From a virus, in IMG/VR virus record IMGVR_UViG_3300021961_000053, positions 19,216-83,215 of that record: a DNA stretch of 64,000 bases, one strand, 5' to 3'. Shown in pieces: positions 12,024-60,100 of this stretch. Numbering within the stretch: the first letter of the stretch is position 1; every line of letters begins with the position of its first letter. Both the position numbers and the translations under genes were made by a program. Under the pieces are notes generated by a model. That model had not been told where the DNA came from. It was given only the letters and a program-made list of their open reading frames with translations, and did not search any database.

Positions 12024-12056
12024 ATATTTCATGTGCCACTTTTCAAAGTGTCACAG

Positions 12057-13844: not shown

Positions 13845-13957
13845 TTAAACTGCTCGTGGTTGTTGCTGCCATTTATATCCTATGGGAACCAGCACGACCG
13901 ATCCGCCATGTGACAGCTGACATACTGGCACATACTGCCGATCTTGTGCGCCGCTAG
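13841..13957 (+). CDS. Small membrane protein, 38 aa (GTG start)
   Basis: GTG start overlapping the previous stop by 4 bases (GTGA). Residues 3-15 (KLLVVVAAIYILW) are a membrane segment, followed by EPARPIRHVTADILAH. This pattern of a short hydrophobic segment and PxxPIRHxTAD is one I recall from T4-like cyanophages. It ends directly before a TATACT promoter. Membrane role unknown. Confidence 0.6.
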   Translation: MIKLLVVVAAIYILWEPARPIRHVTADILAHTADLVRR

Positions 13958-19173: not shown

Positions 19174-19433
19174 CACTCATCAAATTCATTCATCGTGAAG
19201 ACTTTGGACATGAATATATTGTTCAAATTATCAACACAGGCAAACATATGCCTAAACCATTCAAGAACTACTCATTGATTCAAGTATCATTGTCATGGAA
19301 TGATTTCCCTGGTTGGCCATACATTAAGATCAGTTCTGGTACTGGTAGTCTAATCAATGTTATGGCATGGGTGTATAAACTAGGATTTGATTTCTCTATC
19401 ATAGATCGTACATGGAATTGGCATGAGGAATAA
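19170..19433 (+). CDS. Conserved cyanophage-type hypothetical protein, 87 aa
   Basis: ATGA overlap with the previous gene. Pattern YSLIQVSLSWNDFPGWPYIK, then WVYKLGFDFSIIDRTWNW, which I recall as a recurrent cyanophage protein. Aromatic-rich alpha/beta; function unknown. Confidence 0.65.
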   Translation: MTLIKFIHREDFGHEYIVQIINTGKHMPKPFKNYSLIQVSLSWNDFPGWPYIKISSGTGSLINVMAWVYKLGFDFSIIDRTWNWHEE

Positions 19434-19829: not shown

Positions 19830-19999
19830 GGGTTCTTGATACTAATTCGTATTGTTATCAGAATGTTTTTAAATCATAATAAAAATAGGGTTAAGGTGCG
19901 GTAGAGATGTTGGCTTAGCACGCTACCTATCGAAAGTCAAGCAACACTGTGCCAGTCCTCAAAGTGTCACAGAAACCCTCAGAGACCCTCAGAATGCCC

Positions 20000-20005
20000 T
20001 ATAAT
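20000..20005 (+). promoter_or_regulatory. TATAAT box inside the non-coding region
   Basis: Context AGAATGCCCTATAATAGG matches the ATGCCC-TATAAT signature of other units. Just upstream ACCCTCAGA occurs twice in tandem, and AAAGTGTCACAG (about 19964) matches the text before the 12057 hairpin, but no hairpin forms here. Confidence 0.5.
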
Positions 20006-20042
20006 AGGTACATCAGAGGGGGAGAGATCCACGCCTTCTGAG

Positions 20043-20074
20043 GTTTTCCACAGGTTGTGGAATTTGTGGAAAAC
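20043..20074 (+). repeat. Inverted repeat of DnaA-box-like sequences
   Basis: GTTTTCCACA (20043-20052) and TGTGGAAAAC (20065-20074) are perfect reverse complements separated by 12 bases. TTTTCCACA equals the cyanobacterial DnaA box as I know it (E. coli consensus TTATCCACA). A third related word, TTGTGGAA (20055-20062), lies between them. An AT-rich tract follows at once. This could bind host DnaA, serve as a replication origin element, or form an RNA hairpin. Confidence 0.6.
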
Positions 20075-20190
20075 TCAAAAACTGAAAAAGACAAAAATCT
20101 CACTTTTTAAGTTTTTTCAAAAACTGAGAATTTAAGATTTTTGAGTTTTTTCAAAAATTAAACTTTAATCACCTGCATTTACTCACTAAA

Positions 20191-20439
20191 ATGACAAAAA
20201 CCTACGATAATCTTACTAGTAGTGCTATCAATAGTATTACAGTAGAAGATAATGTAGTAAAAGTAGTGTATAATAGTAATAAAGACAAAGAATATACATT
20301 CAACTGTCAAAACATGGATCAATTTGTAGAACAATTGAGTTCAGAATTGATCGATGTAGAGATCAACAATGGAAAAGGATCTGTTGGTCGTTTCTTACAC
20401 CAACAAATCAAGAATGGTGTTCTAATTGAATCTAAATAG
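20191..20439 (+). CDS. KTSC-like small protein, 82 aa
   Basis: SSAINSITVEDNVVKVVYNS followed by KEYTFNC matches the KTSC-type beta pattern (paired strands, then Y-x-F/Y); the end SVGRFLHQQIKNG forms a helix. The function of the family is unknown. The gene is AT-rich and follows the origin-like region. Confidence 0.55.
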   Translation: MTKTYDNLTSSAINSITVEDNVVKVVYNSNKDKEYTFNCQNMDQFVEQLSSELIDVEINNGKGSVGRFLHQQIKNGVLIESK

Positions 20440-57100: not shown

Positions 57101-60100
57101 TGGTACTCCCGCATGTGATGACGTAAGATCTGCTATCGATACTCTCTCATATCTCTGGGTTGATGTTATTGGCAATAATGCATCTGGTAGATATCTAGAT
57201 GCTGCTTACCTAATTGCAAGAAACAGAGATCTGATTGCCGATGCAGCATATGAAGATACTTTAGTTTCATATCCATCTCTAGGTCTCAGCAATGTAAATG
57301 AAAGAAAGTGCCGTAGAGATATCAACTATGTTCTTTCTGGTCTAATCAGGGATCTTATCCTTGGTGGAAATAGTGGCACAGTAACTGCTGCTGAAGCATA
57401 CTTCAGCGGAACTTCTCTTGCTGGTATTCCAGCATCAGAACTTCCTGCAACTAGATTTGCTTTCCAGAGAGCAGCATACTATGCAACTGCTGCTATGCGT
57501 AACTGGACTGACGGTGCTGGCAGTGCTATTACATCAGCATCATCACCAATTCCACAATTTACAGATCCAAGCATCTTAGCGGATCCAGCATCACCAGATT
57601 GTGCTAACGTTGCAGCATCAATCGATACATTGATGACTCTTCTGGATAATATCTTGCTACATGGAGAAAATCCATCAGATCCTGCTGCAATTGAACCAGG
57701 AGCAACAACGATCAACACTGGAACTCTATATGATACATCACAGATCATCACATATCCAGACAGCTACATCTACGACAACAATAATGTCAGAATGGCAGTT
57801 CGTGGTGACTATGATGACTACCCAATCATTGAGGCATCACCATATACTCAGAACTCTTCTGTTATCTCCTTCCTAGGTGGTAGTGGTGCTCTGGTTGATG
57901 GTTCTAAGGTCAAGCAACCTAACTGTCCTTTCCCTGGTCTAGAACTGGATGGTACAGCAACATTCCCAAATCAGGGTAAGTCGATGGTTGCATCTGCATT
58001 CACCATCGTTTCCTTTGGTGGTACAGGATACAAGGTTATTGAAGATGGATATGTACAGTTAGTTTCTGTCTTCGTTATCTTCTGTGCTGATGGTGTATTG
58101 GCAGAGAGTGGCGGGTATTGCTCCATCACTAACTCAGCAACTAACTTCGGTATCTATGCTCTACGTGGTATTGGATACAGAAGAGAAGCATACGAGTTTG
58201 ACGTTGCAACTGTTGTCAATGTTTCTGCTACCCCAACTGGTAGAGCAATTATTACCGTTGATGGACTAGGTAGAGAACCACTAGAGCACTATGTTATCAA
58301 GGTTGATGGATTTGAAAACACAAATCCAGATATCGAATACTTTATTGATGCTGTTGGTGCGGTTGGTGCTGGTCCACCATTCCAAGCAGAACTAACAATT
58401 GATGACGGCACAGGTCAGCCTATGGACCTGACTGATAGTTCTACTGGTCTTCCAGTTTCTACTGGTAATATTATTGGAGCAACAATTAGACTACACAGAC
58501 CATCCATTGTCAATTCATCTTCACACACTTGGGAATTTGCTGGTTCTGGTACTAACTATCTTGCTCTTCCAGAAAATGGAGGAACAAAGACTGAAGCATA
58601 CGAACAAGTTTCCGAAGATTATGGACGTGTTTATGTTTCTGGTACTGACGAACTTGGAGACTTCAAGGTTGGTACATTCGCTAGAATTGAGAACAGAACT
58701 GGTAACATTACCTTCACAGGTACGGTTACGATCTCTGAGGTTGAGTTCCTCAAACTGAAGGGTGGAGATGTTGTTGTTACTGGATTCTCTGCTGATAACA
58801 CCCTTGGTGGTGCTGGAACAAGTAACTCTGTTCTACCTACTCAGAAGGCAGTTAGAGATTACATCACTAATAACCTTGGTCCATACATCAACAAACCATA
58901 CTCAACAAACGCTGTTCCTAGAGCACTTGTTGAACTAACAGATAGTGGTAAGATCTCGATTGATCAGATCCCAGCACTCAGACCATTCAGCGTCTATACT
59001 GTTGCCAATCAAACAGAAAGACTTGCCCTGGAGGGTGCGCTTGCTGGAGACATTGCGATTCAACAGGACACTACAACATCATATATTCTTAATAATGATC
59101 TCGATAGTTTGTTTGTTGCTTTCCAACCAGATCCAACACTGCAATTTACTATTGGCGATATCTTTACTGGTAGCATTACTGGTGGTCGTATTCAAGCAAC
59201 CGAGTACAGACAGGGTGTTGTATATCAACTCAATATCGTCGATGGTGGTTCTGGTTACACATCTCCTCCAGTTGTTACTATTTCTGGTACTCTACAGCAA
59301 GGTGGAGTTGAAGCAAAAGCAGTAACCACAATTGCTAATGGCGAAGTAGTTACTATTCAACTAGTGGTATTCAATGGATATCTTGGCGGTAAAGGATATA
59401 CCAGCGCACCAACAGTAACTATTGCTGCTCCACAAGGTTCTGGAACACAAGCAACCGCAACTTCTCTGATTGAATCCAGATTATACGGTGATGTTGTTAA
59501 TAGAATTCTAATTACAGATACAGATACAATTGAGAGTAGTGACATTCCTGCAGAGACTGTCAATATTACCAGAGTTCTAAACACCTCTGCATCTAATAAT
59601 AATAACTGGGTGTCTCTATCATCCAACCAGATTGCTGCATCTGATATTGTTTCTGGTGTTATTGAAACAGACCGTCTTGCTTCTGGTGGTGCTGCTAACT
59701 CCTTCACATTCCTAAGAGGAGATCAAAACTGGGCTCTTGCTGTTCAGTCAATCAAGGGTGCTGAGATTAGATACTTCGATAAACTATACAGCACAGCAAG
59801 TTCTGGATCAAGCCAACTTATCTTCCAGACAAATTCGGATGTTCTAATTGGACACGAAGTTGTCAATAGTGTTCTTGGTATCCAGGCAAACACTAATATT
59901 ACTGGTGTTATTACTGCTGCTGGTCTGACAACCATTTCACTGAATAATCCACTTACTCAGACAATCAACGCTGGAACTATTATTGAGTTTGAGCGTGGTG
60001 CTTCCCCAATGGTCTTTGAGTCATCATACACTCAAGGAAACTTTGTTGATAGTATCATTGTTGCTAACGGTGGTAGTGGATTTACAGATGGTCAATATTT

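Follow-up and report, generated by a model that had tools for sequence, protein, structure and literature searches.

What does a T4-like cyanophage do with paired copies of a word that cyanobacteria use as a binding box for the replication initiator DnaA? The question is raised by a 64,000-nucleotide stretch (hereafter, the window) of an 83-kb viral record that is related, at this locus, to the T4-like cyanophages (Kyanoviridae). A first-pass annotation had drawn attention to two inverted words in the longest clear gap between genes, and had suggested an origin that recruits the host initiator, a decoy for DnaA or a strong RNA element. When the sequence was re-read, the 10-mers GTTTTCCACA (20043-20052) and TGTGGAAAAC (20065-20074) were indeed exact reverse complements separated by 12 bases, with a third related word, the partial box TGTGGAA, between them on the minus strand (20056-20062). 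Each 10-mer contains the 9-nt word TTTTCCACA, at 20044-20052 on the plus strand and at 20065-20073 on the minus strand, and this word does match the published cyanobacterial DnaA box (PMC4674748; also PMC6323995 and PMC3480399). The window holds no further exact copy; a first-order Markov model predicts for it 1.2 single words and 0.0007 pairs at most 30 bp apart. Words with one mismatch are not enriched across the window (26 observed, 28 expected), and the signal is therefore the exact pair. At two other loci, L039 and L040, the pair lies at nearly the same position with both arms intact and the spacer altered; the central word is replaced by TGTGGAAAC in L039 and by TTTCCACA, in the opposite orientation, in L040.

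The gap that holds the pair spans 349 bp (19830-20178) and is the longest in the window without an ORF of at least 50 aa, the threshold by which it was defined, in agreement with the earlier description. It aligns over several Kyanoviridae genera and is thus a conserved noncoding element, larger than the span first described: the conserved unit extends over ~19890-20190, and its most conserved sequence lies upstream of 20043. This is a 32-bp core, GTTGGCTTAGCACGCTACCTATCGAAAGTCAA (19909-19940, plus strand), near-invariant in 11 phages. Two pattern searches with the core only matched 68 and 105 IMG/VR stretches, and blastn placed the element, whole or in part, in many further phages (Syn9, Syn19, S-RIM8, S-SSM4, ACG-2014b and others). 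We collected 135 copies with full flanks, 73 of them non-redundant at 85% identity, each taken as 580 bp. Core, -10 box and AT-rich tract are its constant parts, often together with a dyad. The repeat CCCTCAGAR stands twice on the plus strand at a distance of 10 bp (19976-19984 and 19986-19994) and aligns in relatives; a weaker copy, CCTCAAAG, was read at 19957-19964 on the same strand. A small gene on the plus strand (20191-20439, 82 aa, phrog_4357, hypothetical) adjoins the element, as it does in relatives; where these are annotated it is T4-GC_805, and T4-GC_637 comes next. Some deposited calls that overlap the element look doubtful, namely the tRNA-Leu of S-PM2 (19252-19333; 2454-2535 in L080) and the tiny ORFs gp86/gp87 of Syn9 (1482-1802 in L081) and 58695-58829 of Syn1. 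Further along the window, GC content reaches ~0.54 between 21000 and 24000, compared with 0.35-0.41 in most of it, possibly marking foreign DNA.

The middle of the element has the layout of a promoter. A -10 box, TATAAT, lies at 20000-20005 on the plus strand, and a TATA[ACT]T hexamer is found ~91-93 bp from the start of the core in most of the 73 elements. Promoter scores of 11-12 (of 12) were reached by 26 of the 73 elements as opposed to 5 of 173 control windows. Some clades carry a full TTGACA-N17-TATAAT, whereas others, including the window, have instead the dyad TGTGNCA-N10-TGNCACA, whose end lies 28-30 bp ahead of the -10 box. In the window this operator-like dyad reads TGTGCCA-N10-TGTCACA (19948-19971, plus strand) and ends 28 bp before the -10 box. 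Altogether three dyads were found in the window (12032-12055, 13909-13932 and 19948-19971), where 0.09 were expected, and others lie in S-PM2 (20116, 20397 and 20654), Syn9 (48558 and 52996) and S-RIM12 (35040 and 43253). In the phages examined, the distance from the end of the dyad to a -10-like hexamer is mostly 26-30 bp. Hexamers with at least five matches to TATAAT occur at 21% of random placements, and we therefore put weight on the narrow spacing from the dyad and on the TATAAT and TATACT hexamers. Cyanophages may have a promoter class, marked by this dyad, in which an activator site replaces the -35 box.

Directly downstream of the promoter lies an AT-rich tract (20075-20172, unstranded), a candidate DNA unwinding element in which, as the first-pass annotation had noticed, one word is repeated (GTTTTTTCAAAAA, at 20111-20123 and 20145-20157). 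We scored duplex weakness by nearest-neighbour energy in eight complete genomes and in the window. In five of the eight (Syn1, Sf-CH3, S-WAM2, ACG-2014e and S-CAM1) at most one duplex of the entire genome is weaker than the tract, and in the window it ranks second at 150 bp, with a single weaker 150-bp region, while in S-PM2 five or six regions are weaker. A downstream 120-bp stretch is among the top 1% in AT content of its own locus at 51 of 71 loci. The position of the unwinding element directly after the promoter is retained in relatives with the exception of Syn9 and S-RIM12, which have the boxes, the core and the promoter but, by duplex energy, no extreme AT tract. Bending of the DNA through phased A-tracts was considered and rejected, as the A/T runs are spaced ~8.5 bp apart and not 10.5 bp. 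The runs recur every 8-9 bp in the window tract and in relatives, with multiples at 17, 25-26, 34 and 42 bp.

Are the boxes a peculiarity of one phage? In the alignment of 11 phages the pair is confined to the window, but wider sampling finds boxes at the element in other phages, and pairs or triples of TTTTCCACA lie upstream of the core in S-PM2, Syn1, S-CAM1, Sf-CH3, S-RIM12 and Syn9. The conservation in close relatives by which the first-pass annotation proposed to judge the pair is thus found, in the form of boxes that recur at one conserved element across Kyanoviridae. The 73 elements (42 kb) hold 120 copies of TTTTCCACA, compared with 62 in 2.04 Mb of flanking sequence, a 93-fold enrichment; when only loci found through the core are counted, the numbers are 105 and 31, or 59-fold. 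No other 9-mer is as common in these elements. Chance was rejected as the source of the boxes, given an enrichment of 59-93-fold and the 0.0007 pairs expected in the window. Descent from one fixed site is likewise insufficient, because the word, found both before and after the core, is spread over 43 position/strand bins. At least one box is present in 46 of the 73 elements (~63%) and at least two in 41, with 2-5 boxes per phage genome. Pairs occur on either side of the core, either in tandem at 12 bp (25 cases) or inverted at 23, 21 or 13 bp. The remaining 27 elements, for example those of S-WAM2 and ACG-2014e, are boxless. Over their 15.7 kb, only two words differ from the box by one mismatch, 0.56 times the background. 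The boxes behave as an all-or-none module, present or absent, and not as a slowly decaying feature. TTTTCCACA is absent from the window outside the element and from all 186 kb of S-WAM2, a possible sign that stray boxes are avoided.

The arrangement of the pairs bears on the suggestion that the word is conserved for RNA folding, with the inverted pair forming the stem of a leader hairpin. The window alone could give this impression, since the fold of its leader (20007-20190) has an energy of -50 kcal/mol (z = -4.2), and the two boxes make up a 15-bp stem in it. Elsewhere, however, the same words form direct tandem repeats, in 25 cases at 12 bp, whose members are unable to pair with each other and thus to form a hairpin, and many box pairs lie upstream of the promoter. 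In addition, no consensus fold of the core was found in the 73 elements, A1 showed no covariation and the window had no match to an Rfam covariance model. ARAGORN detected no tRNA in the window and none at the S-PM2 locus, although the other tRNAs annotated at that locus also escaped it. We disfavour the strong RNA element, which we regard as very improbable.

Tandem boxes are also what cyanobacteria themselves carry. A close tandem pair of TTTTCCACA is present in 131 of 195 cyanobacterial genomes, and dnaN lies near many of the tandem-pair loci inspected, in a list that includes some loci of other bacteria. The host pairs are mostly spaced at 11 bp and the phage pairs at 12 bp. In Cyanothece, domain IV of DnaA binds two tandem boxes, although not clearly a single one (PMC4674748). 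The phage element resembles the cyanobacterial oriC beside dnaN, as in S. elongatus and Cyanothece (PMC3480399, PMC4674748), in having close pairs of exact TTTTCCACA near AT-rich DNA. It differs in residing in a phage genome with neither dnaN nor dnaA nearby, in having a promoter in its middle and in the number of its boxes, which is only 2-5, a third of lineages lacking them altogether. The host pattern does not hold in three small genomes (G030, G058 and G127) that, judged by size and gene content, are probably picocyanobacterial: their tandem pair is far from dnaN, where the boxes are mainly degenerate. The GC skew of G058, as sampled, changes direction close to dnaN, which has degenerate boxes only. 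Judged from these sequences, the host-type word appears to mark oriC in many cyanobacteria, these three excepted, in which the second site may be a DnaA target. The same arrangement, a tandem TTTTCCACA pair far from dnaN, recurs among small cyanobacterial genomes (L577 6226-6245, L578 6060-6078, L579 6245-6263 and L580 6165-6183); a third box lies 291-292 bp away in the opposite orientation in three of the four, while in L577 it keeps the orientation of the pair and lies at 399 bp. This shared pair is possibly a site of DnaA titration or reactivation.

Such a host site lends some interest to the idea that the phage boxes are a decoy, which would titrate host DnaA as phage copies rise and so halt initiation on the host chromosome. 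Paired boxes with free placement would suit a titration site, as would the parallel with the conserved tandem pair away from dnaN in small cyanobacterial genomes, itself a possible titration or reactivation site. A decoy would, however, work anywhere and would have no need to be tied to a promoter and an AT tract; yet in 18 complete genomes every direct box pair within 30 bp sits at the element and nowhere else. Moreover, with only 2-5 boxes per genome there is little to titrate with, and we consider a decoy improbable.

A somewhat less remote alternative, which we nonetheless think unlikely, is that host DnaA, or another reader of the word, acts here as a transcription factor for the small downstream genes, with the AT tract as an untranslated leader and no replication function. 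The promoter is a constant part of the element and boxes flank it on both sides, and similar dyad promoters stand at other, boxless places. This explanation leaves unaccounted for why the leader should rank as the weakest or second-weakest duplex in five genomes, and why most upstream box pairs lie at a large distance from the -10 box; the downstream gene, furthermore, encodes a small hypothetical protein.

Host DnaA boxes in or near an origin have precedents in phage lambda, phage P1 and the mini-F plasmid. These replicons encode an initiator protein of their own, and none is T4-like. Among T4-like phages, the closest match by anatomy is T4 itself, where oriF and oriG consist of a promoter with a sigma-70-like -10 box, an activator site in place of the -30 region and an A+T-rich unwinding element, and where replication is primed from an R-loop made by the transcript (PMC3016281). 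The cyanophage element likewise has a sigma-70-like -10 box, a putative activator site upstream and, directly downstream, a candidate unwinding element. The activator site of T4 is the MotA box, whereas the candidate site of the cyanophages is the unrelated-looking dyad TGTGNCA-N10-TGNCACA, and no DnaA boxes are mentioned for the T4 origins, nor DnaA at all, in the review of T4 initiation (PMC3016281). T4 oriE offers a second parallel, having short repeats by a promoter whose location is shared by related phages (PMC3016281). The oriE iterons, however, are evenly spaced 12-nt direct repeats, while the 9-nt words of the element, which match a host initiator box, have no constant number, spacing or orientation. 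For cyanophages, one review (PMC2984593) cites a prediction of a single theta origin in Syn9, where the element lies at ~52.6 kb; both concern an origin in a T4-like cyanophage, and the review does not bring in DnaA. In a literature search that covered subscription journals thinly, we found no report linking cyanophage DnaA boxes to an origin of replication, and no T4-like cyanophage whose origin had been mapped by experiment; the review cites only the Syn9 prediction.

Taken together, the comparative evidence for the element is strong, and our confidence in its function, drawn from sequence comparison, is moderate. The suggestion of an origin that recruits host DnaA gained strong comparative support, in that the boxes recur beside a promoter and an extreme AT tract and the arms are intact in L039 and L040. 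The GC-skew switch that had been anticipated at 20 kb is absent: cumulative skew is monotonic, and detrended skew has no consistent extremum. A strand switch does not define origins in T4-like phages, as T4 oriA and oriC also lack a switch in strand composition (PMC3016281). Apart from skew, what speaks against an origin is that 27 of the 73 elements are boxless, that Syn9 and S-RIM12 have no extreme tract and that the pair of three small cyanobacterial genomes is far from dnaN. Based on these comparisons, the noncoding element is probably a start site of DNA copying in T4-like cyanophages. We lean towards reading it as a replication origin built like T4 oriF, a promoter with an unwinding element, to which host DnaA boxes have been added in most lineages. 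The broader proposal is more tentative, with its chances close to evenly balanced: that this is the family-wide origin of lytic T4-superfamily cyanophages and recruits host DnaA, having fused a T4-type promoter and unwinding element with a box cluster of the cyanobacterial oriC type. The number and layout of boxes would then turn over, and their entire loss in some lineages would form a series from DnaA-assisted to DnaA-free initiation.

From the anatomy, conservation and enrichment observed here, we infer binding, opening and priming as follows. Host RNA polymerase would transcribe into the AT tract, helped by a dyad-binding regulator where the -35 box is missing. The tract would then open, with an R-loop or bubble forming as at T4 oriF and oriG, and host DnaA on the paired boxes could promote or time this opening, or help to load the helicase. 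Such a DnaA step would belong to the first phase of infection, ahead of the switch to recombination-dependent replication. In boxless lineages, the promoter and the AT tract alone would suffice.

The coordinates of the element in the cultured phages S-PM2 (~19.3 kb), Syn1 (~58.8 kb), Syn9 and S-CAM1 make the proposed origin testable, and box-bearing and boxless lineages provide a natural comparison. If DnaA is used, the DNA synthesis of these phages would be tied to the licensing of replication in their hosts.
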